Source of the DNA: Clostridiales bacterium | GTDB lineage: Bacteria; Bacillota; Clostridia; Saccharofermentanales; Saccharofermentanaceae | Length of the DNA stretch: 64,000 nucleotides | Direction: 5' to 3' | Assembly: GCA_017427465.1 (NCBI GenBank) | Contig: JAFRST010000059.1 | Location: 1-64,000 of the forward strand | In this document: positions 54,166-62,616 of the stretch, piece by piece | How positions within the stretch are numbered: the stretch's first letter is position 1 | How the letters are laid out: every line of letters starts with the position of its first letter | Notes under the pieces: generated by a model | Told to the model about the DNA's origin: nothing | The model's database searches: none | What the model saw: only the letters and a program-made list of their open reading frames with translations | Translations under genes and position numbers: made by a program

Positions 54166-56538
54166 ATGGCTAAATGGATAATCGTTGTAGATGATGACAC
54201 CGCTAATCTTAAGATCGCAGGTCATATCTTAAGCAAGAACAATATGCGCGTTACGGCGCTTAAATCGGGTAAATCTTTTCTCGAATATGTAGACGGCAAC
54301 GGTATGCCTGATCTCGTTCTTCTGGATATCATGATGCCTGAGATGGACGGCTTCGAGACGCTCATCAAATTGCGTGAGATGGAGACTAAGAAAGGTCTCA
54401 TGAAGACGCCGGTTATTTTCCTTACAGCTGATGAAGATGTTGATACGGAAACGCGCGGATTCGAAGTCGGCGTATCAGATTTTATCCGTAAGCCCTTTAA
54501 TCCTGACGTTCTATTAAGACGTATAGGCAACATCATGTCGAACAGCCAAGAGATGCAGAGCCTTAAGAGCGAAGCATCCACAGATAAACTTACGGGACTT
54601 CTCAACAAAGCAGCGACCGGTGTGGAATTATCCAAGGAATGTTCCGCACAGACCGGATGCCTCATGATGATCGACCTCGATTCATTTAAGCTCGTCAACG
54701 ATCTCTACGGTCATGAGATGGGCGATAAGGTGCTCATCGGTTTTGCGGATCTTATCCGTAACACGATGCCTGCAGGAAGTAAATGCGGACGTATCGGCGG
54801 TGATGAATTCACCGCTTTCGCGTTGGGCGTAACGACTGAAGATAAAGTAAAAGATATTACCGTCAGGCTCAATGAAGATCTCGTCAGGATGGCAAAGAAT
54901 CTTATGGGCGAAGATATGGGTATCCCTTTGGGAACTTCCATCGGTGCCATCTTCGTACCCAGATACGGCAATGATTACAACTCATTGTTAAAGCTCGCCG
55001 ACAAGTCACTTTATAACGTCAAGAAGAACGGCAAGCACGGATATGAACTCTACGATGAGGATTATTCTGATGAGGGCGAGACAAAAGAACTCAGTATCCA
55101 GGAGATATCCGAGATATTGGGCGAGAGATCGATCCAGAATGTGGCGCTGCAGCTTGACAGGGAAGCTTTCTCACATGTTTACCGCTACATCATAAGATAT
55201 GCTACAAGGCATCACATCAATGCTTGCAAAGTACTCTTTACTTTGGCACCTCAGGAAGGTCTGCCGGAGAATGAATACGCTGACAGAGTTGACGACTTCG
55301 GAACACACATCAGAGAGTCTCTCCGCAAGTCAGATATCCTCATGAGGAACAGCAGGAATCACTACTTTGTTTTCCTCACCGACATAAGAGAAGATTCGGT
55401 ACAGAAAGTAGTAGACAACATCGTTACCGAATGGAAGAAAAATCATAATGACGAACTTACGATATCCTATGTTACTGAATTCATGGGCAATAACGCGGAG
55501 CAGATAAAAGTCGAGAAAGACAAGCACGTTGTCGTGGTCGATGACGATGAGATCAACCTCCAGATCGCAAGCAAGATCTTAAAATCCGCCGGCATCGGCG
55601 TTACGACTTTCAGATCCGGCGAAGCGCTTCTTGAGCATCTCGAGGATAATATCAGCCACCCTGACCTGATCCTTCTCGATGTCATGATGCCCGGCCTTGA
55701 CGGCTATGAGACCATGAAGAAACTGCGTGCCAAGGATACGCCCGCAGCGCGTCTGCCTGTCGTCTTCCTCACGGCAGACGAGAGCATCGGCGCAGAGAAG
55801 ACGGGGCTTTCTTTAGGCGCGATGGATTTTATCCGCAAGCCTTTTGTACCTGAAGTATTACTCCTCAGAGTTAATCACATAATCGAGCTGGTAAGACTCC
55901 AGAAGCAGCTCTATTACGAAGTCGAACAGAAGACCAGAGAAAACAAGAATCTCTTTATCCATGTCGTTCAATCACTTGCAACGGCAATAGATACCAAAGA
56001 CATATACACCAAGGGTCATTCCAGCAGAGTAGCGGAATACTCCAAGATGATCGCTAAGAGAGCCGGATATACTGAAGCAAGACAGGATGAGATCTACATC
56101 ATGGGCCTGCTCCATGACGTAGGCAAGATCGGCATTCCGATCACAGTCTTAAACAAGCCCGGCAAGCTCGACGAAGAAGAATTCGAGATCATTAAGAAGC
56201 ATTCGCTCAAAGGCTATGCGATCCTCAAGAACATAGAAGAAAACCCCAAGCTGGCCATCGCGGCTAAGTGCCATCACGAGAGATACGACGGTGCAGGTTA
56301 CCCCTCAGGCATTGCAGGAGAAGATATTCCCGAAGAAGCGCGCATCATTGCCGTAGCAGATGCGTACGATGCAATGTCCAGTGACAGAAGCTACCGCGCA
56401 CACCTGTCGCAGGATGAGATAAGAGAAGAGCTGAAGAAAGGCAGCGGCGGACAGTTCGATCCGAAGTTCGCCGATATCATGCTCGGGATAATAGATGAAG
56501 ACACCAATTACAGCTTGAGGTACAAGATGCATGACTAA
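54166..56538 (+). CDS. REC-GGDEF-(degenerate GGDEF)-REC-HD-GYP protein
   Basis: This 790-residue cytoplasmic protein has five domains in order. The first receiver (1-125) has D54 in LVLLDIMMPEMDG. A GGDEF domain (135-297) has an intact motif (RIGGDEF, 209-215) but no upstream RxxD inhibition site. A GGDEF-like region without the motif (315-440) follows. The second receiver (453-575) has D505 in LILLDVMMPGLDG. An HD-GYP phosphodiesterase (595-790) has HDVGKIGIP (650-658) and HHERYDGAGYPSG (703-715). It can potentially both make and hydrolyse c-di-GMP, with each activity under a receiver. It overlaps the next kinase gene by 8 bp, so it is coupled to it. Confidence 0.93.
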   Translation: MAKWIIVVDDDTANLKIAGHILSKNNMRVTALKSGKSFLEYVDGNGMPDLVLLDIMMPEMDGFETLIKLREMETKKGLMKTPVIFLTADEDVDTETRGFEVGVSDFIRKPFNPDVLLRRIGNIMSNSQEMQSLKSEASTDKLTGLLNKAATGVELSKECSAQTGCLMMIDLDSFKLVNDLYGHEMGDKVLIGFADLIRNTMPAGSKCGRIGGDEFTAFALGVTTEDKVKDITVRLNEDLVRMAKNLMGEDMGIPLGTSIGAIFVPRYGNDYNSLLKLADKSLYNVKKNGKHGYELYDEDYSDEGETKELSIQEISEILGERSIQNVALQLDREAFSHVYRYIIRYATRHHINACKVLFTLAPQEGLPENEYADRVDDFGTHIRESLRKSDILMRNSRNHYFVFLTDIREDSVQKVVDNIVTEWKKNHNDELTISYVTEFMGNNAEQIKVEKDKHVVVVDDDEINLQIASKILKSAGIGVTTFRSGEALLEHLEDNISHPDLILLDVMMPGLDGYETMKKLRAKDTPAARLPVVFLTADESIGAEKTGLSLGAMDFIRKPFVPEVLLLRVNHIIELVRLQKQLYYEVEQKTRENKNLFIHVVQSLATAIDTKDIYTKGHSSRVAEYSKMIAKRAGYTEARQDEIYIMGLLHDVGKIGIPITVLNKPGKLDEEEFEIIKKHSLKGYAILKNIEENPKLAIAAKCHHERYDGAGYPSGIAGEDIPEEARIIAVADAYDAMSSDRSYRAHLSQDEIREELKKGSGGQFDPKFADIMLGIIDEDTNYSLRYKMHD

Positions 56539-59080
56539 CTCCAGAGACAGCAATGAACTATTCCAGACATCGCATCTGACGCTTCTGGTCAGCTACACGA
56601 TATTCTCGGCGATCCTTATTGCCGAATCGCTTGTCATGGGCTGGGAGAAGTGGATGATACTCATTATCCTCGCAAGCAACATCGTCTGCTGGATACTGCA
56701 CTTAAGACATGATACGCCCGGCTTTGTAAGGATCTGGGTATACTCGATCCTCATGATGTGCACGTACTTTTTCTACGGTACTCACCTGACCAGCACTTTC
56801 GATCTGGCACTGGTAATGTCTGCCGTCATCATGATCTATACCATGACGGGCAAGCGCGCCCTTATTACGCTCTGCCAGTTCACTTTCATCGTGGCTATGA
56901 CCTATTCGATAGTCGTGCTGGTCCTTGAAGGCGAGACAGAGTTTGACGCGCTTCTTATCAGCAGGACAGTCCTTCACTATTTCATGGTCCTTTTTGTCGG
57001 CCAGTTCGCGAAAAAAATCATCGAGAAGTGGGTCGTCGTACTCGACCAGTCAAAGGAAGAGGTCACTCAGCTTACGGAAGCCACCGAGCGTCTTAATGAC
57101 TTTCTGGCCAACGTATCACACGAGATCAGGACTCCTGTAAATGCCATCATCGGTCTTACGAGCATCTGCATCGAGAAGTCCGTCGACAAAGAGATCACCG
57201 ATGAGATGCTCAACGTAAGAAATGCCGGACGCAAAGTCGCAGAGCAGATCAGCGATATCCTGGACTATTCGGAGATCGACCGTAAAAAGGCCGTAAGGAA
57301 CAACGAGGACTATATGCTCTCATCCGTCCTTCACGACCTCGTAACGGAGATCAGGCATTATAAATCAAAGAGCGTGGAGCTCATCATCGACGTTGATCCG
57401 GCTATTCCTGCCGTAATGAATACAGACGTCGCTAAGCTTAAGAAGATCCTCAAGGCCCTCATCTCCAACGGCCTTAAATACACTCAGAAAGGCGGCGTCT
57501 ATGTAAGGATCACTGCCGAGACACAGTCCTACGGCGTTAACCTCTGCATCGAGGTCACCGATACAGGTATCGGCATGTCCGAATATGAGCTTGAGAGAGT
57601 ATATGACAACTTCTACCAGGCTGATTCCGGGCGCTCTCGAATGGGCGGCGGCCTGGGTCTGGGCCTTGCCATCACATCAGGCTTCGTATCGCTCCTGGGC
57701 GGTTTTATGACTATCGAGAGCAAGCCCGATGTCGGCACGACAGTCAACGTAAGCCTTCCCCAGAAGGTCGTCGATTCCACGAGCTGCATGTCTGTCGCAA
57801 ATCCCGACCAGCTCTGCCTCGGTGCTTATCTGCACTTCGAGAAGTATTCCAGCCCTGCTGTAAGAGACTATTACAATGCTATGGTCCTTAATATAGCCAA
57901 GGGCTTAGGCGTACAGATACACAGAGTTAACAACTCCGAGAACTTAAAGCTCTTGCACGATTCGATCCACATGACGCATCTTTTTGTTGCAGAAGAAGAA
58001 TATAACGACAACGTTGAACTTATTGAGTCTTTGGCAAAAGACATGGTGGTCACTGTAGTCGCAAACGACGATATCGTATTGCCGCGGAACACCGGTGTCA
58101 GAGTGCTCGAGAAGCCTTTCTACTGCTTCCCTGTCGTATCCATCCTCAACTCCACGATAGACGATACCAAGACGGTCGACAAGAAGCTGCGCTGCAACGG
58201 AGTAAGAGCTCTCGTAGTCGACGACGAATCGATGAACCTCGTTGTTGCAAAGAGCATCTTCAGGCGTTACGGCATGAAGGTATCGACTGCAACATCCGGT
58301 CAGGAATCTATCGATATCTGCCGTGAGAAGGTTTTCGATATCATCTTCATGGACCACATGATGGGCGGCATGGACGGTGTCGAAGCAATGAAGCGCATAA
58401 GGACCGACGTATCCGGACTCAATGGTTCCATACCGATCGTAGCGCTTACCGCGAATGCGATGAGTTCTGCCAAGCAGATGTTCCTCTCGGAAGGCTTTGA
58501 CGGATTCGTCAGTAAGCCTGTCGAGATCGAAGAATTAGAGCGTGTTCTTAAGCAGGTACTGCCTAAGTCAGTCATCACTTATGAAGAAAGCTACGCCAGC
58601 ACGAACAATGAAGATGAGCCTGAGGAAAAGGTCGAAGAGAAAGTGATATCCAAAAGTGACGAGGATGTTTTCGCGCAGCTTAAAAAATCCGGGATCGATA
58701 CTGATGCCGGCATCAAGTACTGCGTGGGCGATAAGGAATTTTACAGGTCACTTCTCATCCAGTTCGCTAACGAATCGAACGACAAGATACCGTCGCTTCG
58801 GAAATTCTTCCACGCGCACGACTGGCATAATTACGAGATAATCGTTCACGCATTGAAGAGCACATCTAAGATGATCGGAATAACGGATCTCTCAGAAGAA
58901 GCCAAAGCTCTCGAGATGGCCGCAAAAGAACAGAAGGAAGACTTCATCTCAAGCAATCACGAGCAAGTACTCATGGATTACTCAAGATATGCCGCCGAGA
59001 TAAAGGAAAAGCTCAACGTAGCGACGGAAGATGACGATGAAGTCTTTGAATTTGAACCTGAAGATGAAGGAGGTAATTAA
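56531..59080 (+). CDS. hybrid histidine kinase with pseudo-receiver, REC and HPt
   Basis: This 849-residue kinase has five to six TM helices (about 18-165) without a big extracytoplasmic domain. HisKA has H197 in NVSHEIRTPVNAI. The HATPase has LISNGLKYTQKG, DTGIGM and GLGLGLAI. A linker domain (about 415-545: LCLGAYLHFEKYSSPAVRDYY) looks like a receiver without the phosphoacceptor region, i.e. a pseudo-receiver. The REC (555-680) has DIIFMDHMMGGMDG, and the C-terminal HPt has HALKSTSKMIG. The stop is 2 bp before the kinase-DegV gene. The HPt could serve both kinases. Confidence 0.92.
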   Translation: MTNSRDSNELFQTSHLTLLVSYTIFSAILIAESLVMGWEKWMILIILASNIVCWILHLRHDTPGFVRIWVYSILMMCTYFFYGTHLTSTFDLALVMSAVIMIYTMTGKRALITLCQFTFIVAMTYSIVVLVLEGETEFDALLISRTVLHYFMVLFVGQFAKKIIEKWVVVLDQSKEEVTQLTEATERLNDFLANVSHEIRTPVNAIIGLTSICIEKSVDKEITDEMLNVRNAGRKVAEQISDILDYSEIDRKKAVRNNEDYMLSSVLHDLVTEIRHYKSKSVELIIDVDPAIPAVMNTDVAKLKKILKALISNGLKYTQKGGVYVRITAETQSYGVNLCIEVTDTGIGMSEYELERVYDNFYQADSGRSRMGGGLGLGLAITSGFVSLLGGFMTIESKPDVGTTVNVSLPQKVVDSTSCMSVANPDQLCLGAYLHFEKYSSPAVRDYYNAMVLNIAKGLGVQIHRVNNSENLKLLHDSIHMTHLFVAEEEYNDNVELIESLAKDMVVTVVANDDIVLPRNTGVRVLEKPFYCFPVVSILNSTIDDTKTVDKKLRCNGVRALVVDDESMNLVVAKSIFRRYGMKVSTATSGQESIDICREKVFDIIFMDHMMGGMDGVEAMKRIRTDVSGLNGSIPIVALTANAMSSAKQMFLSEGFDGFVSKPVEIEELERVLKQVLPKSVITYEESYASTNNEDEPEEKVEEKVISKSDEDVFAQLKKSGIDTDAGIKYCVGDKEFYRSLLIQFANESNDKIPSLRKFFHAHDWHNYEIIVHALKSTSKMIGITDLSEEAKALEMAAKEQKEDFISSNHEQVLMDYSRYAAEIKEKLNVATEDDDEVFEFEPEDEGGN

Positions 59081-59082
59081 AG

Positions 59083-61803
59083 ATGAAAGACCTGTTCAGA
59101 TATCTTTTCATGCCCTCCAGAAGTGACCGTGATTCGGTTAAGTCCGCTTATTACAGTTCGCTTAAACCAACGCATGTCATGCTCATGATCTCATTTTTGA
59201 TGTGCGTGGTATTTATGGTCCTGACATTTACGACTCCGGGATTCTTCGGTCCGACAGTTACATATCACAGGGCATGCTACATATTCCTCTTTGTAGTAGT
59301 CGTGTTCTGGGTAATGGTAGTCAGATATGCGATAAAAGACTTCGAGAGCCGGTATAAAATCGTCGCGTTCATGAACGTGATAATGGCCGTGCTGATGTAC
59401 GTCTGGGCGATCGCTCTTGCGCTAGTAAACATGATCATGAGAGTCGAATTAGACACGACGATCTTCATGACAGTATCACTTATAGTGCCTCTCAGCGTTT
59501 ACCTTAACCCGATAAGCTATCTGTTTATAGCTCTGGCGTCAAACGGCGCAATGGTGGTACTGTTCAGGATTGCGCCCCAGTTCGGTCTTGAAGATACGAC
59601 TATAGGATTCGGCAACTTTATCGTTTTCTCGGTATTCCAGATCGCTATGGGTATCACCATGCTCTACACGAGATACCGTCTGCACGAACAGCTCGACACG
59701 GCAGCCAAGCAGCACCGCGAGATCGAGATGCTCAACAAGGCTCAGAACAGTTTCTTCTCCAACATGAGCCACGAGATCAGAACACCTATCAATACCATCA
59801 TCGGTCTTAACGAGATGATCCTCCGTGAGGACGTCAGCGAGGAAGTCGCAGAAGATGCCGCGAATATCAAGGCAGCCGGCAAGCTCCTTCTTAACCTCAT
59901 CAATGACATCCTCGATATGTCCAAGTTCCAGTCAGGACGCATGCAGCTTTTGTATGCACCTTACCACACGGGAAACATGCTCTCGGATATCGTCGGCATG
60001 CTGTGGATAAGAGCCAAGGAGAAGAAACTCGAATTCCATATCGACGTATCTCCCGAGATCCCTGCAGAGCTCATCGGCGACGAAGTCAGAGTCAAGCAGA
60101 TACTCATCAACGTAATCAATAACGCCATCAAGTACACCAAGGAAGGTTCCGTATCACTCACCGTCCAGTGTGAGCGCAAAGAAGATAAGACCTGCAACAT
60201 GGTCTACACGGTATCTGACACCGGTATCGGTATCAAGACAGAAGATATCCCTTACCTGTTCTCCGCATTCAAGCGTGTCGACGAGAACGTCACGCGCCAC
60301 ATCGAAGGTACGGGATTAGGCCTTTCCATCGTTAAGCAGCTCGTAGACCTCATGGGCGGCAAGGTAACCGTCAACAGCGTTTATACCAAGGGTTCGACAT
60401 TCATCATCGAGATCCCTCAGAGAGTCGAGCGCGAAGGAAGCGTCGGCGAATACGACTTCACAAAGGCCGGCCAGCGCAACAAGACAGACTACATCCCGAA
60501 GTTTGAAGCCCCTGAAGCAAGGATCCTCGTTGTCGACGATAACGAAGCCAACCTCATGGTAGTAAGCAAACTTCTCCGCGACACCAAGGTCAGGATCGAT
60601 GCAGTCACGAGCGGCGCTGAGGCTTTAAGGAAAACACTCAACATCAAGTATGATGTAATCTTCATGGACCACCTGATGCCTGAGATGGACGGCATTGAGT
60701 GCAAGCGTAAGATCAAAGAGCAGACAGGCGGACGATGCAGGGAGACGAGTATCGTCATCCTCACCGCCAATGCAGACGAGGAGAACAGGGCACTCTACGC
60801 ACGTGAGAGCTTCGACGGCTATCTTCCGAAGCCCGTAAGCGGAGAAGAATTAGAGAACGAACTCTATTCACTCCTTCCTAAAGAACTCGTCCACATCACA
60901 GGCCACAGGACAGACCTTGCTGAAGAGACTATCTCCTGGATGAATGCCAACAAGCAGAGAAGAAGCGTTGTCATCACCACAGAGAGCGTCGCAGATCTTC
61001 CCGGTGACCTTCTCAAGAAATACGGCATTGCAGTCCTCCCTCACAAAGTCATCACTGCAGAGGGTGTCTTCAAGGATGGCAAGGAGATCGAGACACTTGG
61101 CGTTCTTAAGTATATGGAAGATCCTAACCACTCTGTAAAGCCGTTGGGTCCGACCGTAAAAGAAGCGGAAGAGTTCTTTGCAAAGCAGCTCACAAACGCC
61201 AATAACGTTATCCATATCTCGATCTCGAGCAAGGTCGAGAACAGCGGCTTCCAGCCCGCCATGGATGCTTCGAAATCATTTGACAACGTATTCGTATTTG
61301 ACTCAGGTCACCTCTCGAGCGGACAGGGCCTTATGGTCCTCGAAGCATGCAGAATGGCCGAAGAAGGCAAGAGTGCAGAAGATATCATGAAAGCCCTTGA
61401 AGGTTTAAAGAAGAAGATCCACACGAGCTTTATCGTTGATAACCTTGATTTCCTTGCACGTGCAGGTCAGGTCACAAACGGTACTGCCAATATCGTAAAG
61501 TCGCTCATGGGAAGGCCTGTCCTCGTCCTCAAGAAGGGCAAGATGGGACTCGGCATGACATACTTCGGTTCGCGCGAAAGCGCATGGCGCAACTACATTA
61601 ACTCCATCCTGAGCAAGACCGCGATCGACACGAGGATCCTCTTCGTCACATATGTCGGCATCAACAAGAGCGAGGCTGACTGGATAAAGGCACAGATCGA
61701 GCGGAAGATGAAGTTCGACGAGATCTACTTCAAGCAGGCCTCGCCTGCCATCGCGGTCAACTGCGGAAACGGCACATTCGGACTGCTCTTCAAAGAGAAG
61801 TAA
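59083..61803 (+). CDS. hybrid histidine kinase fused to a DegV (fatty-acid-binding) domain
   Basis: This 906-residue protein has six TM helices (about 31-198). HisKA has H230 in NMSHEIRTPINTI. The HATPase has NVINNAIKYTKEG, DTGIGI, and GTGLGLS. The receiver (477-600) has D529 in DVIFMDHLMPEMDG. A complete DegV-like domain (627-906) stands where HPt is expected. It has ITTESVADLPGDLL, HISISSKVENSGFQP, FDSGHLSSGQGL, FIVDNLDFLARAGQV, and NCGNGTFGLLF. DegV/FakB proteins bind fatty acids and work with FakA kinases. The usual HxGPG-type end is NCGNG, so binding may be changed. No FakA is in the window. Confidence 0.92.
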   Translation: MKDLFRYLFMPSRSDRDSVKSAYYSSLKPTHVMLMISFLMCVVFMVLTFTTPGFFGPTVTYHRACYIFLFVVVVFWVMVVRYAIKDFESRYKIVAFMNVIMAVLMYVWAIALALVNMIMRVELDTTIFMTVSLIVPLSVYLNPISYLFIALASNGAMVVLFRIAPQFGLEDTTIGFGNFIVFSVFQIAMGITMLYTRYRLHEQLDTAAKQHREIEMLNKAQNSFFSNMSHEIRTPINTIIGLNEMILREDVSEEVAEDAANIKAAGKLLLNLINDILDMSKFQSGRMQLLYAPYHTGNMLSDIVGMLWIRAKEKKLEFHIDVSPEIPAELIGDEVRVKQILINVINNAIKYTKEGSVSLTVQCERKEDKTCNMVYTVSDTGIGIKTEDIPYLFSAFKRVDENVTRHIEGTGLGLSIVKQLVDLMGGKVTVNSVYTKGSTFIIEIPQRVEREGSVGEYDFTKAGQRNKTDYIPKFEAPEARILVVDDNEANLMVVSKLLRDTKVRIDAVTSGAEALRKTLNIKYDVIFMDHLMPEMDGIECKRKIKEQTGGRCRETSIVILTANADEENRALYARESFDGYLPKPVSGEELENELYSLLPKELVHITGHRTDLAEETISWMNANKQRRSVVITTESVADLPGDLLKKYGIAVLPHKVITAEGVFKDGKEIETLGVLKYMEDPNHSVKPLGPTVKEAEEFFAKQLTNANNVIHISISSKVENSGFQPAMDASKSFDNVFVFDSGHLSSGQGLMVLEACRMAEEGKSAEDIMKALEGLKKKIHTSFIVDNLDFLARAGQVTNGTANIVKSLMGRPVLVLKKGKMGLGMTYFGSRESAWRNYINSILSKTAIDTRILFVTYVGINKSEADWIKAQIERKMKFDEIYFKQASPAIAVNCGNGTFGLLFKEK

Positions 61804-61812
61804 ATCCTTAGT

Positions 61813-62616
61813 ATGGGAAGCAAAGTGCAGACGTCTGAATCCAGCCCCGCCCCGGTCTCTGATACGATCAGGAAGCTTAAGTCCAAGACCAAGACAAACA
61901 TTGTTGCTGTGGTGATATCACAGGTCATAGCGGCAGGCATCATCGCAGGCGGAATATACGGGATGACCAAGGCAGGTTTTGCCCTGTTGGGTGTTGCTCT
62001 GTTTTTCGCTGCTATCGTAGAAGTATTCTCGATCAGTCTTCTAAATGAGAATAAAAAACTTAAGAAGCGGATCGTGATCGAGAGCAACCGCCCTGCGTCT
62101 ACTATGGTTTTTGCAGACCATCTTTATAAGAACAGAGGGGATACCTACCCGATTGCCAAGGATCTTTATTGCAGGCAAAAAGGCAAGAAAGAAAAGGATC
62201 TCACGAAGGAAGATGAGTCTGTCATCTGGCAATATTCTTACGATGATTTTGCATATCTTCTTATGTGGATAATCGAGAATAATCTCTATCAGCCCTCGAA
62301 AGATCTTGATGAAGATGAAGCTATAGAAGAAAGATCATATGTCGCAAAGATCAAGCGCCGCGAAGCTCTTCCTACAGATTATCTTGAGTCATACGACGGA
62401 TACTTCATGGAGGACAGCATCAAGAAAAAAGCGCGTGCTTTTGTTACCCCCTACTATAAGGATTCATACGAGGATGAAGTCCGTGAGTTTGCAAGTAAGA
62501 ATCTAAATTCAGAGCTATACGGCTTCCCTTTCCGCTGGGAAGATTACGATGCTTTCAAAGTGCGCATTGATGATGCTTATGCCAGATACCGGGAGAATAC
62601 GGATCACTCCGCATAA
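61813..62616 (+). CDS. two-TM protein with soluble domain, uncharacterised (paralogue of 38.9-kb gene)
   Basis: This 267-residue protein has two TM helices (about 31-52 and 57-76) near its N-terminus, then a cytoplasmic domain with KDLTKEDESVIWQYSYDDF, YLLMWIIENNLY, and a C-terminal FPFRWEDYDAFKVRIDDAYA. It aligns in order with the soluble protein at 38884-39342 (ELTEADEKKIWGYAGNHI, WLLRHDYL, FSWDDYLGFEPVIDRAF). It starts 9 bp after the kinase-DegV stop and is likely part of the signalling operon. Function unknown. Confidence 0.8.
   Translation: MGSKVQTSESSPAPVSDTIRKLKSKTKTNIVAVVISQVIAAGIIAGGIYGMTKAGFALLGVALFFAAIVEVFSISLLNENKKLKKRIVIESNRPASTMVFADHLYKNRGDTYPIAKDLYCRQKGKKEKDLTKEDESVIWQYSYDDFAYLLMWIIENNLYQPSKDLDEDEAIEERSYVAKIKRREALPTDYLESYDGYFMEDSIKKKARAFVTPYYKDSYEDEVREFASKNLNSELYGFPFRWEDYDAFKVRIDDAYARYRENTDHSA

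Follow-up and report, generated by a model that had tools for sequence, protein, structure and literature searches.

The window, by which we mean the whole stretch of 64,000 nucleotides that was analyzed, carries a three-gene cassette that starts at position 54166 and encodes, in order, a REC-GGDEF-REC-HD-GYP regulator, an HK-REC-HPt kinase and an HK-REC-DegV kinase (Table 1). The third of these genes is one open frame for a hybrid histidine kinase of TM-HisKA-HATPase-REC-DegV layout; it starts 2 nt past the stop of the partner kinase, which itself overlaps the 3' end of the regulator gene. Downstream of the cassette (window 61813-62616), a frame of 267 aa combines a hydrophobic stretch near its N-terminus with a C-terminal DUF7832 match (34 bits).

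Table 1. Features of the cassette, in window coordinates.
Feature	Position	Strand	Details
Response regulator, REC-GGDEF-(degenerate GGDEF)-REC-HD-GYP	54166..56538	+	790 aa; probable output
Partner hybrid kinase, TM-HisKA-HATPase-REC-HPt	56531..59080	+	849 aa; bears the pair's single HPt
Hybrid histidine kinase with C-terminal DegV	59083..61803	+	906 aa
Membrane part made up of several hydrophobic helices (residues ~1-200)	59083..59682	+	Without Pfam match
HisKA and HATPase_c; phospho-acceptor His230 within invariant SHEIRTP box	59743..60420	+	Pfam and alignment
Receiver domain, residues 481-593	60523..60861	+	Pfam and alignment
DegV/FakB-fold domain, residues 629-904; Q796 and N893 replace FakB Arg173 and His270	60967..61794	+	

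The domain assignments of the third gene are secure, with Pfam matches to HisKA (residues 221-285), HATPase_c (332-446), Response_reg (481-593) and DegV (629-904) that all lie well above the curated cut-offs. The DegV profile (PF02645) scores 156 bits against a cut-off of 27 and is covered from position 2 to 278 of 280, the corresponding NCBIfam model (TIGR00762) scores 170 bits against 99.7, and the nearest solved sequences to this part are 2dt8 (4e-21), B. subtilis DegV (2e-17) and FakB2 (4x9x, 7e-14). With a single frame and both DegV models above their cut-offs, the hybrid kinase-DegV fusion proposed by a sequence-only reading of this DNA is real; an artifact of gene fusion or assembly is ruled out by dozens of independent genomes that carry it, including the isolates YAD3003, AB4001 and Lachnospiraceae bacterium G41. 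That reading had also proposed structure prediction as a check. An AlphaFold (AF2) model of the receiver and DegV domains, built from a 12-sequence alignment (mean pLDDT 82), gave a TM score of 0.87 (target) to both 2dt8 and FakB2 in Foldseek, a VIA Z of 32.2 across 275 residues against T. thermophilus DegV (2dt8) and VIA Z values of 27-32 against approximately 29 solved DegV/FakB entries; the DegV fold was thus obtained, and the C-terminal domain is predicted to be a true member of the DegV/FakB fold.

All catalytic residues of a hybrid kinase are present, and as judged from them the kinase of the fusion is intact: His230, the ATP-binding residues D379, G381 and G383, the H/D/N boxes, and D485, D486, D529 and T561 are invariant in 77 full-length relatives, and K583 is invariant in the 12-sequence alignment. 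Mean pairwise identity among the fusions amounts to 79% in the kinase, 74% in the receiver and 64% in the DegV domain, the last with 40 invariant columns among 77 sequences, and falls to 27% in the membrane part, the least conserved segment. The kinase core and the DegV domain therefore appear to be strongly constrained and the membrane input variable. With regard to the type of membrane sensor, no MASE6-like match was found in the 906-residue kinase, and a Lachnospiraceae relative gave only a weak one (E 0.029).

A search of our genome collection, in which the best 80 of 587 candidate loci were kept and nearly all of these cover the receiver and DegV domain together, showed that the cassette is conserved. 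An HPt-bearing kinase frame lies directly upstream of the fusion in 74 of these best 80 loci; four of the other six run into a contig end, and at L069 and L075 no HPt kinase is recognized although the flank is long enough, these two fusions being possible stand-alone copies. The GGDEF regulator was recognized in 59 of the best 80, its GGDEF motif being intact in every copy (60 of 60 recognized relatives) and the HHExxDGxGYP signature being found in 44 of 53 HD copies; in the window's regulator the GGDEF, HDxGK and HHExxDGxGYP motifs all read as intact. The middle of this regulator (window 55042-55500) is a degenerate second GGDEF domain (PF00990, E 0.002), conserved among cassettes with 36-73% identity. 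Given this conservation, the simplest reading is that the three proteins belong to a common pathway, whose output, from the motifs of the regulator, would be c-di-GMP.

The DegV domain lies directly C-terminal to the receiver, and from this arrangement it had been placed in the position of an HPt. This is wrong in substance. No match to an HPt profile occurs anywhere in the 906-residue kinase, and in this short form of the fusion the HPt is carried by the partner kinase instead. Longer relatives of 1115-1166 aa have the layout HK-REC-DegV-HPt, in which DegV and HPt coexist on one chain, and wherever the upstream partner of such a kinase is visible, it is without an HPt (9/9: L091, L092, L148-L153 and L155), these nine loci being mutually related and thus not a count of independent events. 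At a further locus, L085, a small gene of its own encodes the HPt, and the DegV domain occupies the N-terminus of the second kinase. Since there is one HPt per kinase pair in either layout, the two kinases share it, and the DegV domain as an HPt replacement is rejected. The rule holds for the pair and not for the cluster, as further hybrid kinases with their own HPt lie near L149, L150 and L155.

Among 59 genomes from the genus of the window, 39 have a fusion-type DegV domain in a frame above 400 aa, and a 40th (G014) has a shorter frame; in G040 the sole trace is a fragment with an in-frame TGA (C3:126770-127192), probably a decayed copy. Across 291 sampled Clostridia genomes, the fusion is confined to the window's genus and one other family (f27), which bears out the earlier impression that it is unusual, and in a 299-genome sample of the phylum every other DegV match is a stand-alone frame of 286-370 aa. 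Family f27, where 50/299 genomes gave a match and most of these a full fusion, so that up to 50 carry it, is very probably Lachnospiraceae, judging by the names of the matching genomes. The earlier framing of the fusion within Lachnospiraceae holds insofar as it occurs there too, but the organism of the window belongs to a Saccharofermentans-like genus, whose named carriers include Saccharofermentans sp. RUI428 (L019) and isolate AB4001 (L024), the coordinates of these two loci coinciding with those in genus members G037 and G007. A search of open-access literature turned up no report of a kinase fused to DegV; within that scope, this conserved fusion is undescribed.

A quick maximum-likelihood tree, built from 82 DegV domains, places all kinase-linked domains in one clade (SH-aLRT 100, branch 0.65). 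Branching first within it are L089 and L090, where the DegV is encoded on its own, downstream of an HK-REC-HPt kinase gene, and the neighbors outside it are stand-alone DegVs that mostly keep the Thr, Ser, Arg, Arg and His of FakB. This suggests an order of recruitment from carrier to neighbor gene to fusion. The sequences of the window's genus are nested inside those labelled Lachnospiraceae, which hints at a transfer between the two families. The nearest stand-alone relatives of the kinase-linked clade (L130, L132-L135 and L141) retain mostly FakB residues and are candidate representatives of the ancestral carrier. At L086:2290-4878 and L087:2451-5063, HATPase_c-DegV genes in which neither HisKA nor a receiver was detected are followed by two conserved genes of 459 and 553-554 aa; these may be a more derived version of the module.

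In FakB1, the carboxylate of the fatty acid is engaged in a network of hydrogen bonds with Thr62, Ser95, Ser171 and His270, and Arg173, required for the kinase reaction, and Arg205, required for FakA binding, are completely conserved in FakBs (PMC8892158). Mapped in FakB1 numbering (the FakB1 sequence is identical to 6alw), the catalytic Arg173 corresponds to Gln796, invariant in 77/77 fusions, and His270 to Asn893, invariant in 76/76. Thr62 is Pro687 here, in a column of 51 Pro and 21 Thr among 77; Ser95 maps to a loop that is longer by one residue here, where E719, N720 and the nearly invariant S721 are candidates; and the docking Arg205 aligns to Phe828 or Gly829, uncertain by 1-2 positions and with Arg831 near. 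The loop of the membrane-inserting helix has Asn803 and Ser807 in place of FakB1 Trp180 and Leu184. As a control, stand-alone DegVs retain Arg or Lys at the Arg173 position in 65/65 tested, whereas within the genus of the window the stand-alone DegVs linked to FakA have lost His270 (to Ser, Ala or Asn) and mostly Arg205 (to Thr or Lys) and have kept Arg173, such that the Fak system of this genus itself looks unusual. The loss of His270 and Arg205 alone is consequently no proof of lost FakA use, and we regard Gln796 as the telling change, Asn893 as supporting and the docking arginine as weak evidence. By the same control we reject the argument that His-to-Asn alone proves a different ligand. 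The altered C-terminal motif noted earlier, NCGNG, is present at 893-897, and its first Asn is family-wide, but Asn896 is almost private to the window's sequence, the family having mostly Pro or Ala there. That Gln796 and Asn893 never vary speaks for a site that has been rebuilt and against one that is decaying.

By alignment, the tail-lining pocket residues Ala121, Ala158, Val162, Leu191, Phe263 and Leu271 of FakB1 become Leu744, Thr781, Val785, Leu814, Ala886 and Cys894, and the lining of the fusion is largely that of its stand-alone sister group. These six columns, a subset chosen post hoc, show higher conservation than DegV columns drawn at random (p 0.004) and than hydrophobic columns (p 0.012), and all 12 listed pocket positions are weakly more conserved than random (p 0.03), or p 0.11 against hydrophobic columns.

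The FakA kinase domain is found in 30 of 59 members of the window's genus. Twelve members carry the fusion without FakA or any other DegV, six of which are at least 91% complete (G006, G023, G028, G030, G044 and G058), and in the four tested of the six near-complete FakA-less genomes the C-terminal domain of FakA is absent as well. In the genome of the window, FakA is encoded together with two stand-alone DegVs (G000:C28:6966-11393; L001, L002 and L084) at another place than the cassette. Within the genus, FakA and the fusion are positively associated (26/40 vs 4/19, Fisher p 0.002, uncorrected for kinship), which we count against a complete uncoupling of the two. Delivery of fatty acid to FakA by the fused DegV is nonetheless very unlikely.

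With modest conviction, we lean toward the reading that a FakB-type carrier has been repurposed to serve a c-di-GMP phosphorelay as a regulatory module in the cytosol, probably one that binds an acyl-type or hydrophobic ligand and is not a donor to FakA. The directly observed parts, namely the architecture, residue replacements, cassette, HPt accounting and ancestry, together with the predicted fold, frame this reading; ligand binding itself, control running from ligand to kinase, the phosphoryl route and the c-di-GMP output are what we infer. A stand-alone acyl carrier of the FakB type would have been recruited beside the kinase first and fused later, and would as a fused domain no longer be a FakB or hand over fatty acid to FakA. 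Its inherited cavity, with a polar head-group site rebuilt around Gln796 and Asn893, may bind an acyl-type or other hydrophobic ligand sensed in the cytosol or at the membrane face, and the state of this ligand could tune autophosphorylation, phosphatase activity, or the flow of phosphoryl groups from the attached receiver to the shared HPt. Through that single HPt the two hybrid kinases would feed the REC-GGDEF-REC-HD-GYP regulator, the membrane input of either kinase and the cytosolic DegV input converging on it before passing to the receivers of the regulator.

This reading draws support from the retention of the fusion in distant species, with 64% identity in the DegV domain and invariant H/D/N boxes; from the conserved cassette with one HPt per pair and the single kinase-linked clade; from the invariant Gln and Asn in place of Arg173 and His270 and the six near-complete fusion genomes without FakA or another DegV; and from the tail-pocket columns, whose conservation exceeds the average (p 0.004, post hoc). 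Against it, the carboxylate site has changed (Thr62 to Pro, His270 to Asn, Ser95 without a clear counterpart) to a degree that would allow an empty pocket, the 12 pocket positions as a group are only weakly more conserved than random columns, FakA and the fusion are positively associated, and FakA-linked DegVs of the genus share the loss of His and docking Arg. The earlier suggestion that lipid binding may control signaling remains plausible. More tentatively, the fusion could represent a new class of intracellular acyl-lipid sensor. In this view a phosphorelay captured a FakB carrier, which ceased to be a FakA substrate and, with altered head-group chemistry, came to read another lipid (perhaps an acyl compound that is neutral or amide-linked). 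In Clostridia of the rumen and gut it would report the state of membrane lipids or exogenous lipids to c-di-GMP, integrated with a second sensor via the shared HPt.

In a rather unlikely alternative, the domain is a pseudo-FakB scaffold, a ligand-free surface for protein-protein contact or dimerization that holds the two kinases and their shared HPt together. The rewritten carboxylate network would fit such a scaffold, as would the placement of DegV in divergent relatives at the N-terminus, between REC and HPt or in a separate adjoining gene, as expected of an interaction module, yet Gln796 and Asn893 are invariant and show no drift, and the tail-pocket columns stay conserved. We consider it improbable that the DegV is instead an output domain, with phosphorylation of the receiver switching the binding, release or delivery of fatty acid, via FakA or to the membrane, even though it follows the receiver as an output domain would and most of the sampled fusion-bearing genomes also have FakA. 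The replacement of the catalytic Arg in 77/77 fusions and the near-complete fusion genomes without FakA disfavor the FakA route, and with it the earlier proposal that phosphorylation controls fatty-acid handling in this manner; moreover, the Trp and Leu of the membrane-inserting-helix loop are Asn and Ser here, and some relatives have DegV ahead of the kinase or no detectable receiver. Neutral accretion, whereby the DegV part would hitch-hike without function, is scarcely credible, being already disfavored by the 64% mean identity and 40 invariant columns (77 sequences) of the domain and by the conservation of the cassette across families.

Our findings suggest that some gut and rumen bacteria possess a hybrid kinase with a repurposed carrier domain, a carrier turned internal sensor. 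Few sensor kinases are known to read lipids inside the cell; if the reading of a repurposed carrier is true, an acyl carrier turned phosphorelay part would provide a direct handle on lipid-to-c-di-GMP signaling, and the variants that occur in nature, split or fused and with an HPt or lacking one, make the wiring testable. A warning also follows, in that not all proteins annotated as DegV are FakBs. In comparison to the FakB/DegV family (FakB1 5uto, FakB2 4x9x and 2dt8), the fused domain has the same predicted fold (Z ~30), a full-length domain match and tail-cavity positions partly common to fusion and stand-alone relatives, but it is fused to a hybrid kinase, has Gln, Asn, Pro and Phe/Gly for Arg173, His270, Thr62 and Arg205, respectively, and occurs without FakA. 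With hybrid kinases of the BarA, TorS and ArcB type it shares the HisKA-HATPase-REC core and all catalytic residues, BarA being the best NCBIfam kinase model at a score far below its cut-off, whereas here DegV follows the receiver and the HPt resides on a second hybrid kinase.

The RpfC/RpfG architecture pairs a TM-HK-REC-HPt kinase with a REC/HD-GYP regulator that serves as its output. Our partner kinase and regulator resemble this arrangement, which is the closest working analogy, though by layout and not by sequence membership, as a second kinase with DegV is present here and the regulator also contains GGDEF. Membership in the Rpf/DSF system itself is rejected, since no match to an RpfF-type (crotonase, PF00378) gene was found in the window's 85%-complete genome. 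The fatty acid DSF directly activates the kinase RpfC (PMC5391125), and in S. aureus the fatty acid kinase affects SaeRS signaling (PMC5539427); we count both as precedents for a FakB-type carrier acting as a regulatory module in a phosphorelay.
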